From the IMG/VR virus record IMGVR_UViG_3300008119_000104, positions 1-25,678 of that record: a stretch of 25,678 nt of DNA; one strand, written 5' to 3'. Made by a program: the position numbers and the translations under genes. This DNA is from a virus. Under the pieces are notes generated by a model, which was not told where the DNA came from, made no database searches, and saw only the letters and a program-made list of their open reading frames with translations. This document shows, piece after piece, positions 9,599 to 25,447 of this stretch; the stretch's first letter is position 1; each line of letters opens with the position of its first letter.

Positions 9599-10615
9599 AT
9601 GGCTCATGAATTAGAAACGCAAAATGGCGTTGCTTCATTCGCATCATTCCGTGAACCTGCTTGGCATGGTCTAGGCACTGTATTCACAGAAGAAAAAACT
9701 ACGGCAGAAATGCTTGCTGCTGCTAATCTAAATAATTGGAATGTTAGATTAGAAGATGTCAATATTCCATCTCACTTATCATCAGATAAGTCTTATCAAT
9801 ATGTTGTTCGCACTAACCCTACGGACAATACTCAGACCGATGTTCTCGGTGTTGTAGGTGAGCGTTATGTTCCACTACAAAATGAGGAATTATTCTCATT
9901 CGGTGATAATATTCTTGACGGCGGAGGTCGTTGGGAAACTGCTGGCTCTATTCGTGGAGGTCGTGTTGTATTCGGCTCTCTCGCTCTTGAGCGTGAAACT
10001 GTATTAGACCCAAATGGTGTTGCTGATAAGGTAAAGACTTATTTGCTTATCAATACATCACACGATGGCTCTATTGCTATTCAAGCGTCAATTACACCTG
10101 TTCGTGTTGTATGCGCTAACACTCTCAATCTTGCTCTCAATAGCAAGCGTAAGAAAGACGGCGTAAAGCAATCTTTCAAGATTCGCCACACTCAGACAGC
10201 ACAAGGCAAAGTTCAAATTGCTCGCACAGCACTTGGTCTTGCTAATGCTTACATGGACGAATTTGATAAGTTGGCTCATGCTATGATTCAGAAAGAAATC
10301 ACAGCACAACAGTTCAATGATATTGTTCTCGCTGCTTATCCAAAGCCCGAAGATGAAAAGAAGGGCGCACTTACTCGTTGGACTAAAAAGGTTGATGTTA
10401 TCAATGACATCTACACAGGTGAGTTCAATGGCATGATTGCTGGTAATGCGTGGGGTGCTTTCAATGCGCTTACTGAACGCCTTGATTGGCATCGCTCTGC
10501 TCGTGGTGGTTCTAACGAATCTCTACTTGCTGCTGCTTCTGGTTTTGACGTAACAATTACAGCAGAAAAAAATCGTCTGCTAAATGTTGTTCGCAATACT
10601 TTAGCGATTGTATAA
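9599..10615 (+). CDS. DUF932-family phage/plasmid protein, 338 aa
   Basis: The 338-residue product begins MAHELETQNGVASFASFREPAWHGLGTVF and carries VLGVVGERYVPLQNEE, TYLLINTSHDGSIAIQASITPVRVVCANTL and a helical C-terminal half. These are the signatures of the DUF932 'phage/plasmid-like' family (TIGR03299 type), whose length is typically about 300-350 residues, so the gene looks full length. The biochemical role is unknown; members often lie near replication or recombination genes. AGAAAGGAAAAAAT precedes the ATG. It stands alone between its own promoter and the hairpin at 10630. Confidence 0.9.
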   Translation: MAHELETQNGVASFASFREPAWHGLGTVFTEEKTTAEMLAAANLNNWNVRLEDVNIPSHLSSDKSYQYVVRTNPTDNTQTDVLGVVGERYVPLQNEELFSFGDNILDGGGRWETAGSIRGGRVVFGSLALERETVLDPNGVADKVKTYLLINTSHDGSIAIQASITPVRVVCANTLNLALNSKRKKDGVKQSFKIRHTQTAQGKVQIARTALGLANAYMDEFDKLAHAMIQKEITAQQFNDIVLAAYPKPEDEKKGALTRWTKKVDVINDIYTGEFNGMIAGNAWGAFNALTERLDWHRSARGGSNESLLAAASGFDVTITAEKNRLLNVVRNTLAIV

Positions 10616-10629
10616 ATAATCGCAACTCC

Positions 10630-10652
10630 TGAGCAAGAGTATAAACTGCTCA
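10630..10652 (+). repeat. 3' hairpin element, copy 5
   Basis: CCTGAGCA ... TAAACTGCTCA: TGAGCA (10630-10635) pairs with TGCTCA (10647-10652). Unlike the other copies it is followed by a T-rich tract (ATTTTTATTTT), so this one could terminate transcription. Confidence 0.7.
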
Positions 10653-10659
10653 ATTTTTA

Positions 10660-10689
10660 TTTTGCAATTGCGGATCATAAATTGCAAAA
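10660..10689. repeat. Perfect 10-bp inverted repeat
   Basis: TTTTGCAATT (10660-10669) and AATTGCAAAA (10680-10689) are perfect inverted arms with a 10-nt spacer, followed by an ATTTTCGAAAT box. Could be a two-way terminator for the DUF932 gene or a protein-binding site. Confidence 0.6.
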
Positions 10690-10723
10690 AATTTTCGAAA
10701 TGAGATTTTTGAGCATTTTTTAA

Positions 10724-10763
10724 TTACGAACGACTTGATTTTTCCCCAGGTTTTTGGTATGCT
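10724..10763 (+). promoter_or_regulatory. TTACGAA element plus promoter TTGATT-N17-TATGCT
   Basis: TTACGAA (10724-10730), then TTGATT (10735-10740), a 17-nt spacer with CCCC, and TATGCT (10758-10763) preceded by TGG. The ATG at 10770 is 6 nt after the -10. The same TTACGAA-promoter layout is seen at 14313-14353. Confidence 0.65.
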
Positions 10764-10769
10764 TGATTT

Positions 10770-10970
10770 ATGACAATAGACGAACTGACAACCCACATAT
10801 TTGATATGCGTAATGGTTTGGAATCAGACCTTGGCGGACTGGCAGAAGAAATGGAAGCACTTGACCCTGCTTCTAAAGACTTTGCTGACCTAGACTTTGA
10901 ATATAATTTTATTAATGGTCAGGTAGCAGCATTCAATTATGTATTAACTAAGATAGGCTTACAATGCTAG
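10770..10970 (+). CDS. Hypothetical helical protein, 66 aa, leaderless
   Basis: The start codon is 6 nt after TATGCT and has no Shine-Dalgarno, so it is translated from the mRNA 5' end. The 66-residue acidic product (MTIDELTTHIFDMRNG...) is a predicted two-helix hairpin. It overlaps the next gene by 7 bases. Not recognised. Confidence 0.75.
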   Translation: MTIDELTTHIFDMRNGLESDLGGLAEEMEALDPASKDFADLDFEYNFINGQVAAFNYVLTKIGLQC

Positions 10971-11122
10971 GATATACAGAAGAACAAATAGATAAGATGA
11001 TTACCACTCTTAACTATACTATCCATCATCATATGGTTGGACCATTTGCAGATGAGGATAGAGCAGTTCTTATAGATCTAGAGGACTTTTTAAGGGGATT
11101 AGTTCACGAGGGACGTATTTGA
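10964..11122 (+). CDS. Hypothetical protein, 52 aa
   Basis: Starts inside the end of the preceding gene (ATGCTAG overlap). The 52-residue product (MLGYTEEQIDKMITTL...HHHMVGPF...) is helical with a natural HHH run. Its TGA stop lies inside the -35 hexamer of the next promoter (ATTTGACA). Function unknown. Confidence 0.65.
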   Translation: MLGYTEEQIDKMITTLNYTIHHHMVGPFADEDRAVLIDLEDFLRGLVHEGRI

Positions 11123-11147
11123 CATCCCCCTGATATTTTGCTAGAAT
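11119..11147 (+). promoter_or_regulatory. Promoter TTGACA-N17-TAGAAT with CCCCC spacer
   Basis: TTGACA (11119-11124) contains the stop codon of the upstream gene. A 17-nt spacer begins TCCCCC and ends TTTTGC; TAGAAT is at 11142-11147. Drives the api92-like gene and the operon to 12893. Confidence 0.75.
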
Positions 11148-11175
11148 TGCATTACGACCTACAGAAAGGACCCCA

Positions 11176-11869
11176 ATGCCCAATTGGTGCTATAACTATC
11201 TTGACATATCAGGTGACGAGACCCTGATTGCAGATATCAAGGAATGCGACAACTGGCAATATGGAACTATCGCAAACCCAATACTCTAATCCTGTGTTTG
11301 CATTTCATAATATATATAATCATACTCAGGACGGTGTTTCAGACGAGGAATACATAAAGCAACCTGACTTCAATCAACCTTTAGAAGAATCTCTTATGTT
11401 CAAAGGTAACTCTTGGTATGACTGGAATGTTCGCAACTGGGGAACCAAATGGGATGTTGCAGTTAATGATAACGATAAGTATCCTGATACTGAGTTATAT
11501 GAAGATACTGACAATTCTTTAGGCTATAAGTTTAACACTGCTTGGTCTCCACCTATTGAGGCTATAACCAAACTATCAGAACAATATCCTAGCCTAGAGA
11601 TGAATCTATCCTATGAGGAAGAAACAGGTTGGGGTGGCGAAGTAACATTGCTTAATGGTTTTATTACTACTGTCGAGGAATACGATAACAAGTGTAGAGA
11701 CTGTGATAGTTTAAATACATTAGAATACTGCGAGAACGACTGTGGCGAGATTTGCTCTGCTTGTAATTATATGGGCGAGGCAGACCTTGACTGTGTTGCA
11801 GATTGTGATGTTCACAAGATATACTTAACTGAAGAGTTTGTCCCTGACTATAGATTGGAAAAACAATAA
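11176..11869 (+). pseudogene. Api92-like phage protein, frameshifted
   Basis: The ATG at 11176, behind AGAAAGGACCCCA, encodes MPNWCYNYLDISGDETL, the classical N terminus of the api92-like (YubB ferredoxin-like fold) phage family. That frame stops at 11286 after 37 residues. The rest of the family pattern (YSNPVFAFHNIYN, WYDWNVRNWGTKWDV) continues in the +1 frame from about 11250 to 11869, followed by a Cys-rich tail (CRDCDS ... CSACNY). The change of frame falls between KE (about residue 23) and a TGNMELSQTQY stretch, where homologues seem to have a longer linker, so a short deletion is likely. It could also be programmed +1 frameshifting or a sequence error. The alternative is a TTG start at 11228 giving 213 residues without the conserved N terminus. 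Confidence 0.65.
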
Positions 11870-14204: not shown

Positions 14205-14563
14205 ACAACAAACCATATTTCCTGGTTTTCTGGTTTTTTAAAACATTTTCAAACCTTTTAAAACATATTACGAACTTATTGGATTTTTTCCAGAATTTTG
14301 GGCAAAAAAAGATTACGAACCCTATTGACAAACCCCCATATCTAGGATATAATGCCCAAACCAGGATATAATGGTTTGACAATATCGGGCATATATGGTA
14401 TAGGGTTTGATGGTTTGTGGTTTGATATGTCTCTTTTTCCCGCCGCACATTACGAGCCGCCCTCTATAAAATGGTCCATCCACCACTATACTCCACTTTA
14501 CTCCACTTTAACCCTATCTAAAAATACAATCAGTAAGACATTATTATGGTGTATAATGAATAT
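14205..14563 (+). other. Gene-free region with strong tandem promoters
   Basis: No frame here has a plausible start. It contains TTACGAA motifs (14269, 14313), a perfect consensus promoter (14325-14353), a second promoter TTGACA-N17-TATAGG (14376-14404) and a hairpin. The hairpin has GCCC/GGGC outer arms (14354-14357, 14387-14390) and AAACCA/TGGTTT inner arms (14358-14363, 14372-14377). Many TGGTTT units follow. The region could produce a small RNA or a long 5' region. Confidence 0.5.
14313..14353 (+). promoter_or_regulatory. Perfect consensus promoter TTGACA-N17-TATAAT
   Basis: TTACGAA (14313-14319), TTGACA (14325-14330), 17 nt containing CCCCC, TATAAT (14348-14353). No coding start is available downstream within 200 nt, so the product is probably non-coding or regulatory. 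Confidence 0.75.
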
Positions 14564-15241
14564 ATGAACGCAGAAAATAGTTTTGTAGGCATGAAAAAAG
14601 AAGGTCATTATGACTTTTCAGAAATAAAACAAAACAATGATGCCCTAATCATACATGGCAAAAGCGTAGGACAAAACCCAGAATCCTTTGATAGGTCTGA
14701 ATCCTACAAGCAAAACTTTGAAAAGATGGGTAATGGAGTAGAAAATGTCAAGGTAATAGAAAACTTTCTATCAGAGAAAGAATGTCAGATATTAATTGAC
14801 CTCATTAATAGATTTGGCAAAGCAGAAGAGTTACCAGTTCAATGGGATGCTGATCTAAACCCAACTATCGTAAGAAAGACCTATTCAAACCTAAGAATAG
14901 CAGACAAGTATGTGCCTATGGTCCAAGAACTACTAGAAAAAGAATATGGATTTCCAGTAAAAAATAAAAGTGCATTCTTCGCAAGGTGGGATGCTGGGGA
15001 TAAACTAGAACTTCATGTTGATGATTTAGGACCAACCAACACCAACCACATGGCTACATTAATATATTTAAATGACGATTATGAAGGCGGGGAGATAGAT
15101 TTCCCAACCCATAAATTATCTCATAAACCAAAGACTGGAGACCTAATAATGTTTCCAGGAAATATGCATTATGCACATGAGGTCAAAACCATCATATCTG
15201 GTGTGAGATGGACTGTTCCTATGTGGTTTGAATTTGTATAA
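14564..15241 (+). CDS. 2OG-Fe(II) oxygenase, prolyl-4-hydroxylase type, 225 aa
   Basis: The frame is open from 14546, but ATG 14564 lies 6 nt after TATAAT (14552-14557) and is the leaderless start. The C-terminal half is a double-stranded beta-helix oxygenase: HVD (H151, D153 in ELHVDDLG), the distal His in MHYAHEV (H205) and the 2-oxoglutarate-binding Arg in SGVRW (R215), with YLNDDYEGGEIDFP and PGNMHYAHEV typical of P4H-like phage and bacterial enzymes. The triad is complete, so it should hydroxylate a protein or small molecule using O2 and 2-oxoglutarate. The substrate is unknown. The second half of the fusion at 16750 is a clear paralogue over its whole length. Confidence 0.88.
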   Translation: MNAENSFVGMKKEGHYDFSEIKQNNDALIIHGKSVGQNPESFDRSESYKQNFEKMGNGVENVKVIENFLSEKECQILIDLINRFGKAEELPVQWDADLNPTIVRKTYSNLRIADKYVPMVQELLEKEYGFPVKNKSAFFARWDAGDKLELHVDDLGPTNTNHMATLIYLNDDYEGGEIDFPTHKLSHKPKTGDLIMFPGNMHYAHEVKTIISGVRWTVPMWFEFV

Positions 15242-15269: not shown

Positions 15270-15605
15270 TCAAGAGTAATTTTTGGCGGGATTATGAAGA
15301 TCCTTTATAGCCCTATTGACCAAACCAATTATCTTCTTCTTGGATATCTTACTAGCATCAAATGTCTCCGTATATCCCCCATAGGGCATATCTTCCTTAT
15401 GTAGGTAATAGCCGTATTTATCTCTTAGTGTTTGTAGTACTGTAGATTCTACTCTTCTACATCCCCGCCGATCTTGAAAATACCAATATGCCACTAATTC
15501 CCATCCCTTGGTCCTATGCTGGCGAAACCTTTTACCTGTGATATCCCCCACACCTACCTTGATGGCATGATATTTTTGGTGATAAATCACATATAGTATG
15601 GACAT
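15270..15605 (-). CDS. GIY-YIG-like (T5orf172/Mug113-type) protein, 111 aa
   Basis: The frame is open from 15650, but ATG 15605 (MSILYVIYHQKYHAIKVGV) lies 6 nt after a minus-strand TATAAT, the local leaderless rule. The product has LYVIYH, KVGVG...KRFRQHRTKGWELV, VESTVLQTLRDKYG and MPYGGYTETF. These match the degenerate GIY-YIG nuclease-like family seen in actinobacteria (Y-V-I ... K-V-G-x-G ... R ... H ... W ... E). It might cut DNA or be a homing-like remnant; the catalytic Glu may be in VES. It is convergent with the oxygenase gene (29 bp between ends) and divergent from the gene at 15631. Confidence 0.7.
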   Translation of the reverse strand: MSILYVIYHQKYHAIKVGVGDITGKRFRQHRTKGWELVAYWYFQDRRGCRRVESTVLQTLRDKYGYYLHKEDMPYGGYTETFDASKISKKKIIGLVNRAIKDLHNPAKNYS

Positions 15606-15611
15606 AAAAGT

Positions 15612-15621
15612 ATTATATAAT
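15612..15621. promoter_or_regulatory. Palindromic bidirectional -10 element
   Basis: ATTATATAAT is a perfect palindrome that gives TATAAT on both strands (plus 15616-15621, minus 15612-15617). Leftward ATG is 6 nt and rightward ATG 9 nt from the respective -10. Both genes would have no or almost no leader. Confidence 0.65.
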
Positions 15622-15630
15622 GGGTTTGCC

Positions 15631-15783
15631 ATGTTATCTCGTGAGTCCAAGATAGATTCTATTGTTGATATTATTCATGATCAACTTAAAGGAAAGCACA
15701 AAGATAGGTTGGCTAAAGAATTGGCAGAAGAAATATTAGATGCCATAGAAGATGAAAGTCCCACTTGGTATGAACATGGATAA
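15631..15783 (+). CDS. Hypothetical helical protein, 50 aa
   Basis: The frame starts at 15598, but that ATG lies upstream of the -10. ATG 15631 (MLSRESKIDSIVDIIHDQL) is 9 nt after TATAAT. The 50-residue product is helical and charged, with a KHKDRLAKELAEEILDAIE segment that occurs in small phage proteins of unknown role. It overlaps the zinc-ribbon gene at 15776 by 8 bases. Confidence 0.7.
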   Translation: MLSRESKIDSIVDIIHDQLKGKHKDRLAKELAEEILDAIEDESPTWYEHG

Positions 15784-15886
15784 AGAACAAATAAAATATC
15801 TTTGCTATAGTTGCGGTGTTATATTTATGATAGACATTGATGTAAAGGACAAATGGGAACATTGTCCAACATGCTATAATAAATAA
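15776..15886 (+). CDS. Mini zinc-ribbon protein, 36 aa
   Basis: The 36-residue product has CYSCG and CPTC pairs about 18 residues apart, a small zinc ribbon. It begins inside the previous gene, and its own last codons contain TATAAT (15875-15880), the -10 of the next gene. Role unknown. Confidence 0.65.
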   Translation: MDKEQIKYLCYSCGVIFMIDIDVKDKWEHCPTCYNK

Positions 15887-16006
15887 ATGGAACCAACAAA
15901 ATGCTATTACTGTGATGAGCAAGCAAAATATACTCAGCCAGGTAAAACCACAGGCAAGATTATTGATGTCTGTGAAAAGCATTTTACATTCAAGCATTGG
16001 GGATAG
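15887..16006 (+). CDS. Mini zinc-binding protein, 39 aa
   Basis: ATG abuts the previous stop and lies 6 nt after TATAAT. The 39-residue product has CYYC at 6-9 and CEKH at 29-32, a CxxC...CxxH zinc site like that in the 58-residue protein at 21210. No other domain. Confidence 0.65.
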   Translation: MEPTKCYYCDEQAKYTQPGKTTGKIIDVCEKHFTFKHWG

Positions 16007-16014
16007 GAGATAAT

Positions 16015-16110
16015 ATGAATACGGAAGAATGGTCAAGAGAGACTAAGCAGAAGATTATTATATCTGCTATGGTTATTCTGGCAGCATTAGTATTCTTTGC
16101 CCTTATCTAA
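16015..16110 (+). CDS. Single-pass membrane mini-protein, 31 aa
   Basis: GGATAGGAGATAAT gives a strong ribosome site. Residues 14-31 form one membrane helix after a charged N terminus (MNTEEWSRETKQK). The stop overlaps the next ATG by one base. Function unknown. Confidence 0.6.
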   Translation: MNTEEWSRETKQKIIISAMVILAALVFFALI

Positions 16111-16265
16111 TGAAACAGTCTAACGACAATAAGTCAGAAACTCAGCGTAAGAGGGCTGAGAAAAACAAGAATCGTATATCTGACAAACCACATCTATCTA
16201 AGCATGAAAGATGGGAATTGAGAGAAAGATTACGAATAATATCTGAAAGCCTATCAAAATTTTAA
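16110..16265 (+). CDS. Basic helical mini-protein, 51 aa
   Basis: Coupled to the preceding gene by TAATG. The 51-residue product is rich in Lys, Arg and Ser, with HLSKHERWELRERLRIISESLSKF at the end, and may bind nucleic acid. Not recognised. Confidence 0.6.
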   Translation: MKQSNDNKSETQRKRAEKNKNRISDKPHLSKHERWELRERLRIISESLSKF

Positions 16266-16266
16266 A

Positions 16267-16398
16267 ATGGCTGTAAAATGTGCGATTGTGCATTTACATC
16301 AAATATTTGTTAAATCAGAGATTATTGAGGTTGATGGCATAACTCATATTAGATATTCTTGTTCAAGATGTGGGTGGGAAAGGCAACAGGCAGCATAG
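16267..16398 (+). CDS. Mini zinc-ribbon-like protein, 43 aa
   Basis: One base separates it from the previous stop. Motifs are C at 5 and H at 9, then CSRCGWE near residues 32-36. The GITHIRYSCSRCGWE phrase is typical of small zinc-ribbon phage proteins of unknown role. Confidence 0.6.
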   Translation: MAVKCAIVHLHQIFVKSEIIEVDGITHIRYSCSRCGWERQQAA

Positions 16399-16483
16399 AT
16401 AATATTTAACCATATTGACCGTAGGGGTCATTGAGAGGTTATTTATTTCTATTTTCCGCCGAACTTTAAGACAATTAGTAGTG

Positions 16484-16531
16484 TATAATTAAAAGATGGA
16501 TAGGGGCTATATTGTCAGAAGAACATACTAA
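16484..16531 (+). promoter_or_regulatory. Leaderless promoter with 11-codon upstream ORF
   Basis: TATAAT (16484-16489) is followed after 6 nt by ATG 16496, which opens an 11-codon frame (MDRGYIVRRTY) ending at 16531. It overlaps, in another frame, the TTG start of the 85-residue gene at 16512. Ribosomes loading at the mRNA end would translate the mini-ORF first. Confidence 0.5.
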
Positions 16532-16769
16532 AAAAAGAAAGTTATTGGATGGCTCTGAAGTAAACGATTACGATCATCCCATTGATTTAATTTTGCATAC
16601 CAAGGCTCCAGGAAAATGGAAAGTAATTGATATGGAGACAGGTCAGGAATATATAGGGTCTGAAATAACACACCCAACTTTTGGTGAGATTTTACGCACC
16701 AAAGTAAATAATGGTAAAATAGGATCTTGGCATAAGACGAAAAGGAAAGATGGATCTAATGTTGAATAA
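16512..16769 (+). CDS. Hypothetical protein, 85 aa, TTG start
   Basis: The longest supported start is TTG at 16512, with GGATAGGGG 6 nt before it. No ATG exists early in the frame. The 85-residue product has GKWKVIDMETGQEYIG and HPTFGEILRTKVNNGKIGSWHKTK, which look like a small beta-rich phage protein. Its end overlaps the fusion oxygenase by 20 bases, so the two are co-translated. Function unknown. Confidence 0.7.
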   Translation: MSEEHTKKRKLLDGSEVNDYDHPIDLILHTKAPGKWKVIDMETGQEYIGSEITHPTFGEILRTKVNNGKIGSWHKTKRKDGSNVE

Positions 16770-18216
16770 ACCAATAACATTCCACTGGATGTGGAGAAGA
16801 CACTGGCAGATAAGTGATAGTATTGAGAATCTAGATCTTGATGGAATTCTCCGTATGGCACAAGAGTTGGATGGTGCAAATGTTAAATCTGTTTTGCTTC
16901 CGTATGGTCCAGGAGGCATAGACTTTTCCTTAGTTATAAAAGATGCATTAGAAAAAACAAATCAGTTAATTATGACAATTGCTTTACCTGCATATGGGGT
17001 AAGCCCAGATTATGCTGCTAAGATTTTAGAAACATTGAATCGTTTTGCTCCTGGACGAATTGGAGTAAATCTTGTCGCTGGAAGATGGGGTGACGAAGGT
17101 AATGGCCCTAGCGAAAAACTAGTCATAGATCATTACATGCATGATCCATCACTCATTGATACTCTTGAAAAAAGAGTAGCAATATCAGAAGTTTGGATGG
17201 ATAAAGTTATGGCGTTAATGAAAAATCATAAACATAAAACTCATATGGCCGTAGTTGGTTCTTCAGATACAACAATTAGAATAGCAAATAAGCATTGCGA
17301 ATATATATATATAGACGACAATCTTTTACGTAGACCTGAGCAGTATGCAAAAATAACTTATCCAAAACCAATTCTTATTGTAGATCCATTAATAATTGAA
17401 AAACCAGAAGACGTTAACAATGTTGTTTATGATGATAATGCACCACCAAGAAAACAATTTCATCATATTGTGGGTACACATAATGAAGTTGTTGCTGCAA
17501 TTAAAAATATTGCAGAAAAATTTGACATCTATGATTTTATGATACATACAGATCAAAAAGACATTAGTAAGTTGTTAAAATTAGTAAAGGAGTTTGACAA
17601 AATGCCATCTGATAATAAGGGTGAAATGGAACATTTTGATATATCAAATGATGATAGAAGGCCTGAAGGGTCAACGCTTCATCACGAGGTATTTGAAAGA
17701 ATTGGAATTAAGGAAAATAATTTAAAGGTTTTCAGTAATTTTATATCTCCAGAAGAATGCAGGGCTATTATACAAAGTATTAAAGATGTAAATCCATCAT
17801 CAGAAAAGCCAGTGCAATTTAGCCCAGATGGGGATCCTCTAACCTTTAGAAAAGATTGGGATATTAATCCATATATTGATAAATATAAAAATATTGTTAA
17901 TGGTGTTATAGAAGCAGAATATCCTATTAGGGTATTAGTGAGAAGTGCAAAAATTGCAGAGTGGACAAAAAACGATGTATATGATTTGCATATTAATGAT
18001 TTAGGTATAAATGATTTTAATAATATGTCTGCAACTATATATCTTAATGATGATTTTGAAGGGGGAGAATATCACTTCCCTGCTCAAAATAAAACCTTCA
18101 GGCCAAAGGTCGGAGATTTAATTATTTTCCCAGGTAACATGTATTATAATCATATAATTAGTAGAATAACTTCAGGATCAAGATATACTATTCCTTTGTG
18201 GTATACATTTATTTAA
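16750..18216 (+). CDS. LLM-type flavin monooxygenase-like / 2OG-Fe(II) oxygenase fusion, 488 aa
   Basis: The N-terminal part (about 8-285) looks like a luciferase-like / alkanesulfonate-monooxygenase (SsuD-type) TIM barrel: DGILRMAQELDGANVKSVLLPYG, SPDYAAKILETLNRF and GRIGVNLVAGRWGDEGN. It is shorter than the about 380 residues of SsuD. The C-terminal part (about 300-488) is a P4H-type 2OG oxygenase, paralogous to the 225-residue enzyme at 14564: ISPEECRAI, YLNDDFEGGEYHFP, PGNMYYNHI (H468) and SGSR (R478). The proximal iron motif reads HIN (H414-I-N416) where the paralogue has HVD, so the acidic ligand is replaced by Asn. The enzyme may thus bind iron differently, use another chemistry, or be inactive in that half. 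The start overlaps the preceding gene; ATG 16759 is an alternative. Both halves would need FMN, O2 and 2-oxoglutarate. Substrate unknown. Confidence 0.85.
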   Translation: MDLMLNKPITFHWMWRRHWQISDSIENLDLDGILRMAQELDGANVKSVLLPYGPGGIDFSLVIKDALEKTNQLIMTIALPAYGVSPDYAAKILETLNRFAPGRIGVNLVAGRWGDEGNGPSEKLVIDHYMHDPSLIDTLEKRVAISEVWMDKVMALMKNHKHKTHMAVVGSSDTTIRIANKHCEYIYIDDNLLRRPEQYAKITYPKPILIVDPLIIEKPEDVNNVVYDDNAPPRKQFHHIVGTHNEVVAAIKNIAEKFDIYDFMIHTDQKDISKLLKLVKEFDKMPSDNKGEMEHFDISNDDRRPEGSTLHHEVFERIGIKENNLKVFSNFISPEECRAIIQSIKDVNPSSEKPVQFSPDGDPLTFRKDWDINPYIDKYKNIVNGVIEAEYPIRVLVRSAKIAEWTKNDVYDLHINDLGINDFNNMSATIYLNDDFEGGEYHFPAQNKTFRPKVGDLIIFPGNMYYNHIISRITSGSRYTIPLWYTFI

Positions 18217-18223
18217 AAGTAAG

Positions 18224-18379
18224 ATGACAATAAAAGATAGAATAGATAATATATTGTTCAAAATTGGACAAGAAATAAAGATACACAAAATCAATTCTGA
18301 TAATACTATTATTGAAATAGACTATGATAAATATTCTGATGAAATTTTAAAACTTTTTGAAGAATATAAGGGTGTCTAA
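18224..18379 (+). CDS. Hypothetical protein, 51 aa
   Basis: Starts 8 nt after the fusion gene with AAAAGTAAG as weak leader. The 51-residue product is Lys/Ile/Asp-rich with helix-strand-strand-helix pattern (MTIKDRIDNILFKIG...). Not recognised; supported by an intact frame and tight packing between genes. Confidence 0.6.
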   Translation: MTIKDRIDNILFKIGQEIKIHKINSDNTIIEIDYDKYSDEILKLFEEYKGV

Positions 18380-18380
18380 C

Positions 18381-18409
18381 TTTACAATTTTGTCAGTTTA
18401 GTGTATACT
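18381..18409 (+). promoter_or_regulatory. Leaderless promoter TTTACA-N17-TATACT
   Basis: TTTACA (18381-18386), 17 nt, TATACT (18404-18409), then 6 nt to ATG 18416. A TTGTCA lies within the spacer but only 8 nt from the -10, so it does not belong to the N11 class. Confidence 0.75.
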
Positions 18410-18415
18410 AAAAGT

Positions 18416-18523
18416 ATGAATGGAAAAGTTGTTATTTGTCCTGTGTGCAAAAAAGAAACTGAAGTACGTTGGGGTATATTTGCACATGATACACTGAATA
18501 GGCACATGAAGGAACATAAATGA
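18416..18523 (+). CDS. Mini C2H2-type zinc-finger protein, 35 aa, leaderless
   Basis: The 35-residue product has CPVCKKE (8-11) and HDTLNRHMKEH with His residues about 24, 30 and 34. This is a C2H2-like finger where CxxC is followed by HxxxH. It starts exactly 6 nt after the -10 and ends in an ATGA overlap with the next gene. Such small fingers may regulate transcription or bind host proteins; the target is unknown. Confidence 0.75.
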   Translation: MNGKVVICPVCKKETEVRWGIFAHDTLNRHMKEHK

Positions 18524-18684
18524 AAGAATATAAATTTGATGATTTGGACAATGATGGTTATGAAATTGTCATTCCTAAAGAGGTAGTCAAGAACATACTT
18601 ATACATCATTATGCTAAAACATTTTACTGGACAGTTGGATTGTTTTCATTTATCGTTGGATTTTTGACAGGAGTAATTGTATGA
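18520..18684 (+). CDS. Membrane mini-protein, 54 aa
   Basis: ATGA overlap with the zinc-finger gene. An acidic N-terminal half (MKEYKFDDLDNDGYEIVIPKEV) is followed by one membrane helix (about 36-54, TFYWTVGLFSFIVGFLTGV). Probably N-terminus in the cytoplasm. It ends in another 4-bp ATGA overlap. Function unknown. Confidence 0.7.
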   Translation: MKEYKFDDLDNDGYEIVIPKEVVKNILIHHYAKTFYWTVGLFSFIVGFLTGVIV

Positions 18685-18854
18685 GCAGACAACCAGTAGA
18701 ATTTTTAGAACTAGAAGAGTCAGTTGTTGTTACTCTTAAAACTAAATGTCCAGAAAAATATTTATTGGTAGATAGACAAACTGGAGATGTATTTGTTGCT
18801 AAAGAAACTGGAGAATGGGAGTTAGTTCGTGGGGGGCCACACAGACATGTATGA
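18681..18854 (+). CDS. Hypothetical protein, 57 aa
   Basis: Starts in an ATGA overlap. The 57-residue product contains CPEKYLLVDRQTGDVFVAKE and TGEWELVR. The pattern of short strands ending in 'VDxxTGxxxxxxxxGxW' is frequent in small phage proteins and suggests a beta hairpin domain. No function assigned. Confidence 0.7.
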   Translation: MSRQPVEFLELEESVVVTLKTKCPEKYLLVDRQTGDVFVAKETGEWELVRGGPHRHV

Positions 18855-19095
18855 TGATGATGCTTTTGAATGGGAAACAGTTAGAATAGATCAATCTCGT
18901 CCGCCACTGAGATGGATTGCAAATTTTTTAGGTAATCTTGCATCATCTGCTATTCTTCGTATATCTTATGCTGAAGAAGAAGGTAAAGAAAATTTTGCAT
19001 ATAAAAGAGATCTATTTATTTGGGATAAATGTTGGCCTATTTATGATAAATATGGAACTATATATAAAATGAAATTTGATGGAGAAGAACTATGA
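18847..19095 (+). CDS. Hypothetical protein, 82 aa
   Basis: ATG 18847 (MYDDDAFEWETVRID) overlaps the previous gene by 8 bases; a GTG at 18829 would add six residues. The 82-residue product has a hydrophobic middle (WIANFLGNLASSAILRI) that is more likely an amphipathic helix than a membrane pass. Ends in an ATGA overlap with the next gene. Not recognised. Confidence 0.7.
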   Translation: MYDDDAFEWETVRIDQSRPPLRWIANFLGNLASSAILRISYAEEEGKENFAYKRDLFIWDKCWPIYDKYGTIYKMKFDGEEL

Positions 19096-19476: not shown

Positions 19477-20602
19477 AAAAATAATATCTGCTGTTTTTGC
19501 CATTTCTTTATTTTCTATTTCACCATCATATTCTGTCGAGTTTGGACAAGATGCAACGGGTGATCCAAATGCTGTAAAAGTGGCAGGAGCATCTGGGTTT
19601 CTATATTCAGAGAGAATTGTTTTAACTGCTGCACATGTAATTGAAACTTCTGGCGGTATTTCCTATTGGGAGCGTCAAGGTATTATTTATGAACCAGGAA
19701 TCAGTAATACTGAAGGTCAAAAAAGATATAGGGTCAAACAAGTAATCATTCCAAAAACATATGTTGCTTATGCTGGACATCCTTTCAATATTCAGCCAAT
19801 TGATGACTTTGCAATTCTTATATTAAGTGAAGATATTCCATTGACAAAAAAAGTTATGATAGCGACAGAAGATCAAATGCAAAGATTTGTAAAAGAAAAA
19901 TCAAAAGTTGAGTTGGTTGGTTATGGTTTTCAAAATGGCAATCAAAGAAACAATAGTTGGCAACAAAATATGAATAAATCACCACATAAATTAGTTAGTA
20001 GCCTATCTTCGCCAGAAATGGTATCTCAATTTTATAAAAGATATCCAGACGGCCTACCTTCTTGGTGGAGTATTAAAGATGGAGTTTATGGAGTAGTTCA
20101 AAATCGTACCGAAACTGGTGGCTCTATTTGCGACGGTGATTCAGGCGCTGGATTTTTTGTTGAAGAAAAAAATATTCGTTATTATTTTGGTTATGCTGGT
20201 ACAGGATTAATATATAATTCTTGTCCACCGCCCGTAAAACCATTTCGTGCTCCTTCAATGAGTTGGATTACACCTGCCTATAAATTTTTGGATCTAATAA
20301 AAACTGCTGAAGATATTGTGGATGAGGATAAAAAAAGAGAGTTTTATGAAATAGAAAAAGAGCGTATTGCTGAGGAATTAAAAGCCAGGCAAGAAGCCGA
20401 ACTTAAGGCTAAAATAAATGAAGAAGAAAGATTAAAGATTGAGGCTATTTCTGCTGAAATTATTAAAAATAATCAAAGCCTCGCAAGGAAGTTATACGCT
20501 GGAAAACCTTGTAGTAAAATAAGATCAACTAAGGTTGTTTATAATATTAAATTTACATGTATAAAAAAGAATAATAAGTTAGTATGGAATCAGGGTATTT
20601 GA
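19472..20602 (+). CDS. Secreted trypsin-like serine protease, probable ATT start, 376 aa
   Basis: A signal peptide (KKIISAVFAISLFSISPSYS after the initiator) leads into an S1-type protease: LTAAHV (His55), DDFAIL (Asp112) and CDGDSGAGF (Ser224) form the triad. A Glu/Lys-rich helix (about 300-345) and the Cys/Trp end module (GKPCSKIRS...FTCIKKNNKLVW) follow. No ATG, GTG or TTG is available upstream of the signal peptide. The codon in the ATG position, 8 nt after AGAAAGG, is ATT (19472), and a stop lies in frame at 19457. A GTG at 19580 would remove the signal peptide and is 18 residues before His55. So either initiation is at ATT, or a +1 shift from the 9-codon ORF feeds this frame, or there is a base error. 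The exported enzyme could process host surface proteins. Confidence 0.82.
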   Translation: MKKIISAVFAISLFSISPSYSVEFGQDATGDPNAVKVAGASGFLYSERIVLTAAHVIETSGGISYWERQGIIYEPGISNTEGQKRYRVKQVIIPKTYVAYAGHPFNIQPIDDFAILILSEDIPLTKKVMIATEDQMQRFVKEKSKVELVGYGFQNGNQRNNSWQQNMNKSPHKLVSSLSSPEMVSQFYKRYPDGLPSWWSIKDGVYGVVQNRTETGGSICDGDSGAGFFVEEKNIRYYFGYAGTGLIYNSCPPPVKPFRAPSMSWITPAYKFLDLIKTAEDIVDEDKKREFYEIEKERIAEELKARQEAELKAKINEEERLKIEAISAEIIKNNQSLARKLYAGKPCSKIRSTKVVYNIKFTCIKKNNKLVWNQGI

Positions 20603-20660: not shown

Positions 20661-21122
20661 ATGGTAGATTTTCTAGCATTGCTTACTTTTGGATTATTGG
20701 TAACATCAATAATCCTTACTTTTAAAAAACATACAAACAGATCAGTATTTTGGATTGCTACGTTAGTAGCAATTGTTGGTTTCGGCTGGATTGCTCCAGA
20801 TACAAACGAAGAAAAATCTTTAAATAAAAATAATACAGAAAAATCAGTTATCAAAGAAAATAAAAATGTTAATACAGCAACACAATCTCCTATTAATATT
20901 TTGAAAAAAAATATTGAAGAATCAATTGACAGGAAAATTAAAATTGAAAAATCTTTAGATGAGTCATGTATCATGATTCGTTTTCCAATGAATGATTCCC
21001 AATGGTCAGTCAATGATATTGTTAGAAGGGGTCAAAAAGATATCTTGCTTATACTTTCAGAATATAAAAGTATGCCATTTATCGTAGGTTCAAGTCCTAC
21101 CTGCTCTACTTTGCCCTTGTAG
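20661..21122 (+). CDS. Membrane-anchored protein with tRNA-derived C terminus, 153 aa
   Basis: Two membrane helices at the N terminus (about 3-20 and 29-46) are followed by an Asn/Lys-rich linker and a soluble C-terminal part (about 75-138). The last 14 or so residues (IVGSSPTCSTLPL) are encoded by a tRNA 3'-end-like fragment and the first bases of tRNA-Leu, so the natural C terminus has probably been replaced. The two-helix anchor plus linker plus small domain recalls short DUF4190/DUF4339-like envelope proteins, but I cannot name the family. AACAGAAAGGCTTTAAAA precedes the ATG. Confidence 0.75.
   Translation: MVDFLALLTFGLLVTSIILTFKKHTNRSVFWIATLVAIVGFGWIAPDTNEEKSLNKNNTEKSVIKENKNVNTATQSPINILKKNIEESIDRKIKIEKSLDESCIMIRFPMNDSQWSVNDIVRRGQKDILLILSEYKSMPFIVGSSPTCSTLPL
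21084..21108 (+). other. tRNA 3'-end fragment (T arm plus acceptor), possible att core
   Basis: GTAGG-TTCAAGT-CCTAC (21084-21100) is a perfect T arm, followed by CTGCTCT and A (21101-21108) as the 3' acceptor strand. No matching 5' acceptor (AGAGCAG) or D arm is found upstream, and the sequence is read as protein there. Such fragments are typical of phage attachment sites or tRNA remnants. Confidence 0.55.
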
Positions 21123-21209: not shown

Positions 21210-21386
21210 ATGGATAACAAACAATATTTAAATTTTATTAGACAAAAAAATAAAGAAATAATGTCTAAATGTCATTATTGTGATGGATTTGCTATAAATA
21301 TAGAGGCAGATGGTTATGCTATTAGGCCTGTATGTAAAAATCATGATACTATGTCTCTAAGCGAAATAGAAAAGGACATAGAATGA
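21210..21386 (+). CDS. Small zinc-binding protein, 58 aa
   Basis: AAAGGAGGCATA gives a near-perfect ribosome site for ATG 21210, with TATAAT (21189-21194) just behind the tRNA. The product has CHYCDG and CKNH pairs, a CxxC...CxxH zinc site like the protein at 15887. It is coupled by ATGA overlap to the kinase/nucleotidyltransferase, so it may work with it. Confidence 0.75.
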   Translation: MDNKQYLNFIRQKNKEIMSKCHYCDGFAINIEADGYAIRPVCKNHDTMSLSEIEKDIE

Positions 21387-22144
21387 TTATTCAAATTATT
21401 GGTTTACCTGGATCTGGTAAGACTGCACTGGCGACGGCACTTAAAGAACGAATTAATGCTATTCATTTAAATGCAGATGAAGTTAGGGCTACTGTTAATT
21501 CTGATCTTGGCTTTACCCTCGAAGATCGTATAGAGCAAGCACGTCGCATGGGCGAGATGGCAAGGTTAATAGCCAAACAAGATGTAGCACCAGTTATTGT
21601 AGATTTTGTGTGTCCTACAAAAGAAACCAGAGAAGCCTTTGGAAAGCCAGATATTTTAATTTGGATGAATACCATTGAAGAAGGTAGATTTGAAGATACA
21701 AATAAAATGTTTCAAGAACCAGAATCATACGACATAATGTTTTTAAATCATGACAAAGATTCAAATGAAAAGGCTACTGAAATTATTAAGTATCACAAGT
21801 TACACGATTGGTCTGCACCTACAACACTAATGCTTGGAAGATATCAGCCGTGGCATGAAGGACATCATGCTCTATATGTTGAGGCAGGTAAGAGAACAGA
21901 ACAAGTGCTACTTGGAGTTCGTAATACATACAAGACTAGTGAAAAAGATCCGCTTAAGTTTGATCAGGTAAAAGAATATATTGCTAAAGATGAATTTATG
22001 AATGGATCAATGGTATTAAGATTACCAAACATTACCAATATTGTTTATGGTAGAGATGTTGGATATAAGATTGAACAAATTGATTTGGGGGCAGACATTC
22101 ATGCTATATCGGCTACGCAAAAGCGTAAAGAAATGGGCATCTAA
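21383..22144 (+). CDS. APS-kinase-like / HIGH-motif nucleotidyltransferase fusion, 253 aa
   Basis: Residues 1-140: a P-loop kinase with GLPGSGKT (7-14), LNADEVRATVNSDLGFTLEDRIEQARRMGEMA and VDFVCPTKETRE, matching the adenylylsulfate (APS) kinase pattern (D-x-D-x-VR, GFS-x-EDR-x-E-x-RR, F-x-x-P). Residues about 150-253: a nucleotidyltransferase with GRYQPWHEGHH (HxGH) and ISATQKRKE (ISxT), as in NMN- or pantetheine-phosphate adenylyltransferases. The kinase half would convert APS to PAPS, and the second half would attach a nucleotide to a phosphorylated or sulfated substrate. The first Asp of the DGD motif is Asn here. A general small-molecule kinase cannot be excluded. Coupled upstream to the zinc protein and followed by a DUF2061 gene. 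Confidence 0.82.
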   Translation: MIIQIIGLPGSGKTALATALKERINAIHLNADEVRATVNSDLGFTLEDRIEQARRMGEMARLIAKQDVAPVIVDFVCPTKETREAFGKPDILIWMNTIEEGRFEDTNKMFQEPESYDIMFLNHDKDSNEKATEIIKYHKLHDWSAPTTLMLGRYQPWHEGHHALYVEAGKRTEQVLLGVRNTYKTSEKDPLKFDQVKEYIAKDEFMNGSMVLRLPNITNIVYGRDVGYKIEQIDLGADIHAISATQKRKEMGI

Positions 22145-22575: not shown

Positions 22576-23593
22576 GTGAACTATGAAAATTTTGTTAAAC
22601 TTGCTAGTAAAAATATTTTAGATATTTATAATTATAGTACAGAAAATTCATATTTATTAAAAAATTTTACAGACAGTAATCAACTTGGAGTTAATATTCC
22701 AAACAAAAATAATCCATATTTTGAAAGAAACAAACAAAATACATCGCATATACAAGTCATCGATCCAGATAATTATTATTATATAAATGAGTTAGGACTT
22801 CGTGGAAAAATAAACTATGAGTCAGATGTTTTGACTGCGGGATGCGCTATAACTTTTGGATTAGGGATACCAGAAGAAGGAACCTGGCCACAACTTTTAA
22901 GTAAAAATTAGAAAAACTTGTGATTTAGTAATTAGGTATTCATCAAAGTATAAAATTCCTAAAACTATATTTGTTTTATTTCCAAATTTATTTAGAACTA
23001 TGTTGGTGGAAGATGTAGATTTTTATGCAACAACAAAAAATATGTATCCCAACAAACAACGCAAAACATGGAAACAAGAAGGATTTGATGCTGGAATTTT
23101 GTTTAATAAACAAAATAATTTTATATCTTTTAAACACACAAATAAGCCAGGATACTTTGAATCAAAAAATAGAGATGTTAATTATATGGAAAATGTTTTA
23201 TCCCCTCATCAACTAATAATAGATGCTGTCGACGCTATATCAACATTAGAGTCTTTTTGCTCTTCTCATAACATAGATCTTTATTGGTCAATATGGCATA
23301 CACCAAGTGCTCTTCTAATGGATCATTTATTAAAAGTGCCAAATTTTAAACTAAAGAGATATTTTAGATTTGCCGATGATAACTTTAATAGTTATTTTGG
23401 AAAAGATGGCAAAATATCAAATAAATTTTGTAATTTAGATCATAATTCTGAATTTATAAATCATCCGTTTTGGAAACAAGGTAGTGATAAATGTATTGAT
23501 ATTAATGATAATATACTAGAAAAATGGATTAGTTCTCCAGGAATTCATTTTCATCACCACGTAGCAGAATTATTTAATGAGGTATATAATTAA
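22576..23593 (+). pseudogene. Decayed SGNH-hydrolase-like gene (copy 1)
   Basis: GTG 22576 lies 6 nt after TATAAT (22564-22569). The N-terminal frame (111 residues to 22911) and the frame from about 22912 to 23593 together align with the intact 357-residue gene at 23709: NELGLRGKINYESD, FGLGIPEEGTW, then YKIPKTIFVLFPNLFR, YMENVLSPHQLI, PGIHFHHHVAE. At about 22905 some 45-50 bases covering the paralogue's INKDIINLSSPGWST block are missing, and the frame shifts by one. The residue at the nucleophile position is also changed: GCAITFG (Ala91) where the paralogue has GCSFTFG. It is thus doubly disabled as a hydrolase. The C-terminal part could be re-started from ATG 23000, but no ribosome site is evident. 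Confidence 0.8.
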
Positions 23594-23708: not shown

Positions 23709-24782
23709 ATGGACTTGTCATATAAAAATCTTTTAGATGTTTATGAGTATCACGAAAATAATTTTTATTTATATAAACATTTTATGGATACTAATAGAAT
23801 TGGAAGTAATGTAATTAATTCAGAAGATCCATATAAAGTTAGACATAAGGGCAATGTCTCTGGCATACATTTAGTAGATAAAGAAAATAGTTATCACATA
23901 AATGAATTGGCACTTCGTGGAAAAATAAACTATGAGTCAGAAATACTTGGGGCAGGATGTTCTTTTACTTTTGGAATGGGTGTTCCAGAAGAAGGTATCT
24001 GGACGCAAATTTTAGGTAAAAAAATAAATAAAGATATCATAAATTTATCAAGCCCTGGATGGTCAACAAAAAAGATTTGTGATCAAATAATTATATTTTG
24101 TGCAAAATATAAAATGCCTAAAACTATTTTTGCTTTATTCCCAGGGTTTTTCAGAGGAATGATGGTTGAAGATATAGATTTTTATTCTACAACAAAAAAT
24201 ATGAACCCGAAGGAACAACATAAAATACCTGGATCAAACATTCCTTTATTGATGCAACAGTCTTTTGATCCAATGATTTATTCTGATAAAAGAAATAACT
24301 TTATTGCTTTTGAACATATCAAAAAATCAGATTATTTTGAACCTAAACATGAAAATATAACATATATGGAAAATGTTTTATCACCTCATCAATTAATATT
24401 GGATGCCGTTGACTCAATATATTTATTAGAATACTTTTGCAAATCACATAATATAGATTTGCAATGGTCAACATGGCATAAACCAACAACTTTGTTAATG
24501 AAAAATTTGTTAAAAATACCTAATTTTAAATTAAAAAAATATATTGAATTTTCTGATGATAATGATAACTATCTTTTGGAAAATATAAACAACTTTCCTC
24601 ACAAGTCATGTAGCATTGGGCATAGTTCCAGCCTTATAAAACATCCTTGCTGGAATAAAGGATCTGATCATATTATTGACATTAACGACAATAAGTTACC
24701 TGGATGGCCTGGTCATCCAGGAATTCACTATCAAATACATCTTGCAGAATTTTTTTATAAAATATATGAGGATAATATATGA
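23709..24782 (+). CDS. SGNH/GDSL-type hydrolase-like protein (copy 2), 357 aa
   Basis: Leaderless: ATG is 6 nt after TATAAT (23697-23702), which is preceded by TGA. The product has GAGCSFTFGMGVPEEGIW (Ser85 as the GDSxTxG-like nucleophile, with Cys replacing Asp), NLSSPGWSTKKI (block II-like), and near the end HPGIHYQIHLAEFF with His in the position of the catalytic His of SGNH enzymes. Such proteins act as esterases or acyltransferases on sugars and lipids. No signal peptide is visible, so it should be cytoplasmic. It ends in an ATGA overlap with the sulfotransferase, so the two are probably partners in modifying one substrate. It is the intact paralogue of the decayed gene at 22576. Confidence 0.75.
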   Translation: MDLSYKNLLDVYEYHENNFYLYKHFMDTNRIGSNVINSEDPYKVRHKGNVSGIHLVDKENSYHINELALRGKINYESEILGAGCSFTFGMGVPEEGIWTQILGKKINKDIINLSSPGWSTKKICDQIIIFCAKYKMPKTIFALFPGFFRGMMVEDIDFYSTTKNMNPKEQHKIPGSNIPLLMQQSFDPMIYSDKRNNFIAFEHIKKSDYFEPKHENITYMENVLSPHQLILDAVDSIYLLEYFCKSHNIDLQWSTWHKPTTLLMKNLLKIPNFKLKKYIEFSDDNDNYLLENINNFPHKSCSIGHSSSLIKHPCWNKGSDHIIDINDNKLPGWPGHPGIHYQIHLAEFFYKIYEDNI

Positions 24783-25447
24783 GCAATGTAAATATGACAA
24801 ATAATTCTTTTGATGTTCACCCAAGAGATTTATCAAGTGGGGGTATACATATTGCTACATCTCCAAGAACTGGTTCGACATATCTTTGGTGGCTATTACA
24901 TACATCTTTTGGAAGCAATGTTTATAAAACTCATATTTTAAATGAGTCTCCAGAAAATTCTGTCTCCAATCTTCCTAGAAGATATTATTGGAAAATGGGT
25001 AGAATATTTTTTAAAGAAGAGGATTATATAATTAATGTATTGCGGGATCCAATTGATACTATTTGCTCTATGCTTATTCAGGAATACGTTTACCTGGAAG
25101 AAGATATTGATTTAGAAAAATATATCAATGATAATGTTGCTAATAGGATAGAAGGTTATAATTTTTTTCACAGCAATGTGCCAAAGTTATGCGATCTTAT
25201 ACTTAACTATGAAGATATAAATTTACATAAACATGAAATAGTAAATCATGTAAGTGAAGCAACTGGAAGAAAAATTATTAATACAGAGTATAAGGATTTT
25301 ATTAAAGATGATAAAAATAGCCACTTTTTAAAATCTGCTAAAATTTTTGACCAATATGATTTTGCTAAAGAGCAAGGTTCTAAAGGAAACTTTATTGCAT
25401 CCTATAGTATATATAATAAATTAATTAAAGAATGTAAGAAGTTTTAA
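24779..25447 (+). CDS. Sulfotransferase-like protein, 222 aa
   Basis: Starts in an ATGA overlap with the SGNH gene. TSPRTGSTYLWWLL (27-40) matches the 5'-phosphosulfate-binding loop of PAPS-dependent sulfotransferases, and NVLRDPIDTICSML (87-99) the 3'-phosphate-binding R...S region. The length is at the short end for Stf0-like enzymes, so the C-terminal part is reduced. It would move a sulfuryl group from PAPS to a sugar, lipid or other hydroxyl. PAPS could come from the APS-kinase-like protein at 21383. A second sulfotransferase follows after 7 bases. Confidence 0.82.
   Translation: MSNVNMTNNSFDVHPRDLSSGGIHIATSPRTGSTYLWWLLHTSFGSNVYKTHILNESPENSVSNLPRRYYWKMGRIFFKEEDYIINVLRDPIDTICSMLIQEYVYLEEDIDLEKYINDNVANRIEGYNFFHSNVPKLCDLILNYEDINLHKHEIVNHVSEATGRKIINTEYKDFIKDDKNSHFLKSAKIFDQYDFAKEQGSKGNFIASYSIYNKLIKECKKF

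Follow-up and report, generated by a model that had tools for sequence, protein, structure and literature searches.

The viral DNA analysed here (25,678 nucleotides, positions 1 to 25,678 of IMG/VR record IMGVR_UViG_3300008119_000104; hereafter the window) encodes a 488-residue protein, P0001, in which a luciferase-like (LLM) barrel of the SsuD type is followed by a P4H-like 2OG domain with a degraded iron site. Most likely, the fusion holds at most one O2 chemistry, plus a docking domain. We consider the odds about even that P0001 is a phage tailoring oxidoreductase, made of the LLM barrel and a non-catalytic 2OG docking or regulatory module and encoded in a tailoring cassette. Its parts are as follows:

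16750..18216, + strand: LLM and pseudo-2OG fusion protein P0001, an open frame whose architecture is repeated in IMG/VR loci
16750..17604, + strand: LLM (luciferase-like, SsuD-type) TIM barrel, residues 1-285 (AlphaFold and VIA Z 21; hhalign E 4e-11)
17605..17664, + strand: low-confidence linker, about residues 286-305 (pLDDT < 50 at 289-310), of different length in different relatives
17665..18213, + strand: P4H-like 2OG domain with degraded iron site (pseudo-2OG), residues 306-488 (PF13640; Z 16.2 to vCPH; triad complete in 0/56)

As the original prediction held, P0001 is encoded by one intact frame, with an ATG start, and the fusion recurs. In IMG/VR, 130 stretches matched P0001, and the best 80 loci kept from these all carry intact fusions, with identities to the window copy of 75-100% in the LLM half and 34-100% in the 2OG half. 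Four other contigs (L003, L083, L084 and L092) show at least 99.8% DNA identity to the window across the fusion junction. An assembly chimera is ruled out by the repetition of the junction in independent contigs and in those 80 loci. The AlphaFold model of the whole protein does not fix the arrangement of the two domains because its pTM is 0.56 and confidence is very low in the linker, at about residues 289-310. A second scan, for which the LLM half served as query, found at least nine other loci where the two halves are adjacent, overlapping genes of 284-295 (LLM) and 185-189 (2OG domain) amino acids. In these split loci the pseudo-2OG gene directly follows the LLM gene and its iron triad is also incomplete. 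A quick tree of 2OG domains placed all LLM-linked copies, fused or split, in one group (SH-aLRT 89). Within that group the split copies sat at two separate places among the fused ones, a pattern suggestive of either two fissions or repeated fusion. A cellular origin or a host copy was disfavoured to the extent that two scans of cellular genome contigs, which were sensitive to close relatives only, gave no relative. Among named phages no LLM-2OG fusion was found either, and for the LLM half the only match was partial, at 27% identity (E 0.02), to an ssuD gene of an Acinetobacter phage record. LLM enzymes and 2OG oxygenases are each already known in viruses, and no report of their joining was found in a search of mostly open-access literature.

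Of the two Pfam matches anticipated for P0001, the one to the 2OG family held (PF13640, residues 407-485, E 2e-7) and the one to Bac_luciferase stayed below threshold (E 0.05, residues 28-112), so that other tests were needed to assign the LLM half. VIA-align of the AlphaFold model gave Z 19-21.5, with rmsd about 3.3 over about 255 residues, for residues 5-287 against CmoJ, SfnG, LadA, SsuD, MsuD and RutA. NCBIfam SsuD models matched with E 4e-7 and 2e-6, MsuD and SsuD sequences of the PDB with E about 1e-4, and an hhalign comparison with an SsuD-family alignment covered residues 25-184 (prob 97, E 4e-11). By its modelled (beta/alpha)8 fold this half belongs to the LLM superfamily, and fold and profile comparison together rule out a chance match. 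The predicted barrel in the first 285 or so residues thereby stands, and neither of the outcomes that would have spoken against the fusion (no LLM fold, or an assembly join) was seen.

The second half was likewise correctly foreseen as a P4H-type fold. Folded alone (pLDDT 84.6), it forms a P4H/PHD-like DSBH with vCPH, the PBCV-1 collagen prolyl hydroxylase (5c5t), as its nearest structural match and Z 14-15 to PHD2 and P4H. However, the HxD...H iron triad is complete in none of the 56 distinct LLM-fused copies, while the Arg that binds the 2-oxoglutarate carboxylate is kept in all 56. The sites in the window are:

17989..17997, + strand: HxD motif site, H414-I-N416 in the window (Asp to Asn); PxD, SxD, RxD, AxD, LxD, QxD or PxN in relatives
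18151..18153, + strand: distal triad His, H468 in the window; Tyr in 44/56 distinct copies
18181..18183, + strand: R478, the 2-oxoglutarate-carboxylate-binding Arg, kept in 56/56

The LLM-linked copies show the combinations PxD..Y (28), HxN..H (8), RxD..Y (6), SxD..Y (5), PxN..Y (3), PxN..H (2), AxD..Y (2), LxD..H (1) and QxD..H (1). Each of the three iron ligands is thus lost in part of the clade and none in all copies. Since the tree requires two or more transitions between intact and lost at every one of these positions, no single shared loss accounts for the decay of the iron site. The window copy is the mildest case, with only one ligand lost (D to N) and both His and the Arg present, and to judge from these residues some residual metal binding at H414-x-N416...H468 is conceivable. 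Median dN/dS values came to about 0.16 (2OG domain) and 0.07 (LLM half) in a simple Nei-Gojobori count over 163 non-independent pairs. These values indicate that the fused 2OG domain is under purifying selection and rule out a decaying pseudogene.

The free-standing relative noted originally 1.5 kb upstream of the fusion is about 42-43% identical to the fused domain:

14546..15241, + strand: free-standing 2OG oxygenase P0002, 231 aa, with intact H157-x-D159...H211...R221 (PF13640 E 7e-12)

The H, D, H and R residues are kept in 61 of 61 distinct free-standing enzymes and related unlinked paralogues, P0002 included, and HDH is likewise intact in further 2OG paralogues encoded on long contigs. 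Because the triad is complete in 0/56 fused copies while the free-standing enzyme upstream retains it, the fused half is most likely, on sequence grounds, a pseudo-oxygenase.

An active 2OG gene precedes the fusion in 77 of the best 80 loci from the first scan, and the exceptions begin near a contig end. Pairs of dead and active members are a known way of regulating enzyme families. Both observations would fit a heterodimer in which binding of the pseudo-2OG domain activates or positions the active 2OG enzyme encoded upstream, giving a complex of two catalysts. However, in L003 the upstream 2OG gene (782-1429) has been exchanged for a gene whose product matches the fused 2OG domain at 29% identity, and it stands beside a 100% identical fusion. 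The DNA of L003 is 99.9% identical to the window from 15604 to 19069, a comparison that indicates cassette swapping by recombination near window position 15600. A specific obligate pairing of the fusion with the upstream enzyme is disfavoured because the neighbour changed and the fusion did not. The heterodimer was therefore lowered from first choice, and we now regard it as unlikely, though it remains the strongest of the alternatives.

The universal retention of the 2-oxoglutarate-binding Arg, when the iron ligands are not kept, might instead point to a sensor, in which the pseudo-2OG domain would detect 2-oxoglutarate, or another ligand, and gate the LLM barrel. The Arg may, however, simply serve the fold, and we judge a sensor improbable.

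A further possibility is that the LLM half is non-catalytic as well and the whole protein structural or binding. In the hhalign register, which ends at about residue 184, the conserved N107, V109, G111, R142, S171 and S172 of P0001 correspond to N104, V106, G108, R126, S177 and S178 of MsuD, which are FMN or O2 pocket residues (PMC8234197). In the same register the MsuD flavin-site residues T49, R77 and Y127 are changed to Y52, P80 and V143. The IS-4 active-site lid is missing: in the model, about 50 residues lie between beta7 (206-211) and beta8 (262-265), without the large helical insert. Seven long contigs, some of which are incomplete, gave no match to the flavin reductase families PF01613 and PF03358; the host could supply the reductase partner. 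Flavin use by the LLM half is plausible, and with the changed flavin site and the missing lid it might not be a standard monooxygenase. The lid, the changed contacts and the lack of such a reductase on those contigs speak for a barrel without catalysis. On the other side, conservation within the protein is strongest in the LLM half, with long invariant stretches, and goes beyond what a mere scaffold would need, and we give this explanation only a slim chance.

The original prediction suggested that two different O2-dependent reactions within one chain act successively on a single substrate. Taken with a window H-x-N...H site that can still hold iron, this reading is the least probable of all: both His and the Arg are kept in the window clade, the fold is P4H/PHD-like and selection is purifying, but intact triads are absent from all 56 fused copies, and in most relatives the first His is lost and the second is Tyr while the LLM half is 75-82% identical to that of the window, so that the conserved function cannot need iron in the fused domain. 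Any sequential oxidation would draw its 2OG step from the separate enzyme upstream.

The genomic setting bears on the preferred reading of P0001 as a tailoring oxidoreductase. Dozens of contigs share the order active 2OG, LLM (with pseudo-2OG), one or more sulfotransferases and an SGNH protein. In the window itself the APS kinase, SGNH and sulfotransferase genes are placed further downstream of the fusion:

21383..22144, + strand: APS kinase with an HxGH nucleotidyltransferase-like domain, a possible source of PAPS (PF01583 E 1e-15; PDB APS kinases E 1.5e-10)
23709..24782, + strand: SGNH/GDSL-like protein with GCSFTFGMG motif, of the family of the conserved cassette member of relatives (motif and family; weak GDSL matches)
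24779..25447, + strand: sulfotransferase-like protein with PRTGSTYL and LRDPIDT motifs (profile against PDB sulfotransferases E 5.6e-7, CurM sulfotransferase)

Profile and motifs mark the product of 24779-25447 as a putative PAPS-dependent sulfotransferase, its single-sequence Pfam match being sub-threshold. A search of titles and abstracts gave no clear precedent for a phage sulfotransferase with an APS kinase. Long related contigs carry several 2OG paralogues each, and genes for APS kinase (8/11), carbamoyltransferase (9/11), Trp halogenase (5/11) and WhiB (10/11). Actinobacterial hosts are suggested by WhiB and by a DUF932 gene that shares 53% identity with those of Streptomyces phages.

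Several other genes were seen in the window and its relatives. A trypsin-like protease is encoded at window 19580-20602 (PF00089 E 2e-11), with a relative of 398 aa in G005. At 23000-23593 a shorter SGNH-family copy, perhaps a remnant, lies beside the full-length one at 23709, and at window position 21079 about 260 bases are absent that are present in the near-identical L083, L084 and L092. A second, diverged LLM paralogue of about 265 aa occurs at L162 3001-3795, in L163-L167 and at G003:C1 25082-25879; it is preceded by 2OG genes (two on G003 and others), with the triad intact in those that were read, and has an SGNH gene after it wherever the contig extends far enough. L153 7870-9474 (G005:C1 27870-29474), from a related phage, encodes an FAD-dependent tryptophan halogenase (PF04820 E 2e-100), and at about 10360-11438 of the same contig (G005:C1 30360-31438) peroxiredoxin (AhpC-like) and AhpD-like genes, so named by sequence resemblance only, are adjacent. 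A NodU/CmcH-type carbamoyltransferase is encoded at L146 18233-19657 (PF16861 E 1e-52).

In the pathway that we propose, the upstream active 2OG enzyme would hydroxylate a substrate, possibly on the virion or cell surface, and the LLM unit, an SsuD/MsuD-like and probably flavin-dependent barrel, would carry out a second redox step. The P4H-type 2OG domain, tethered to the barrel by a flexible linker and having lost iron catalysis, would now be a docking or regulatory module; it likely binds the polymer or peptide bound by its active paralogues and presents it to the LLM barrel. PAPS-dependent sulfotransferases would cap the product, with PAPS supplied via the phage APS kinase, and the SGNH protein may edit acyl groups.

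Proteins with collagen-like Gly-X-Y repeats were observed in three long records, one or two per record (G001:C1 84931-85662, G003:C1 100220-100936 and G005:C1 3138-4460). That these are substrates of the P4H-like enzymes is possible, as a guess. It is a long shot that actinobacterial phages run an oxidation-plus-sulfation pathway on their own virion protein, for example a collagen-like one, in which the flavin enzyme holds its substrate through a dead prolyl hydroxylase domain. If real, such a pathway would add a novel viral protein modification and a novel function for a 2OG pseudo-enzyme. A 2OG half that was repeatedly disarmed and yet kept by selection is in itself a clear natural example of a pseudo-oxygenase module, and its linkage to sulfotransferases, APS kinase and an active 2OG enzyme outlines a concrete pathway that can be tested in actinobacterial phages. 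The case is also a warning that Pfam 2OG matches counted as oxygenases in viromes can mislead.

Compared with SsuD and MsuD, group C flavin monooxygenases of the LLM superfamily, P0001 has the same TIM-barrel fold and strand order and the flavin-site motifs N-x-V-x-G and G-S-S. However, its LLM half has 285 residues against about 380, shares 18-20% identity with them, lacks the IS-4 lid, has several FMN contacts altered and carries the attached 2OG domain. With P4H/PHD-type 2OG-Fe(II) oxygenases, of which the PBCV-1 viral collagen prolyl hydroxylase is the nearest solved, the second half shares the DSBH fold and the Arg, whereas the iron triad is incomplete in every copy downstream of an LLM, fused or split. 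Virus-encoded LLM proteins occur also in viruses of archaeal nitrifiers, where the genes are reported as putative AMGs (PMC11849493). BFVD likewise has "luciferase-like domain" proteins from uncultured Caudovirales, with lengths of 249-251 aa and about 18% identity; the fusion is not described for either. T4-like cyanophages have a similar tailoring set, with multi-copy 2OG oxygenases (several paralogues per genome), carbamoyltransferase, prnA and speD. They belong to another phage lineage with another host, and the parts of the source consulted (PMC3037559) do not mention an LLM fusion or a sulfotransferase cassette. The lake actinophage DSL-LC01, compared through the text of its paper (PMC10611076), where no luciferase-like gene is mentioned, carries WhiB and a tryptophan halogenase, both of which occur on long contigs related to the window.
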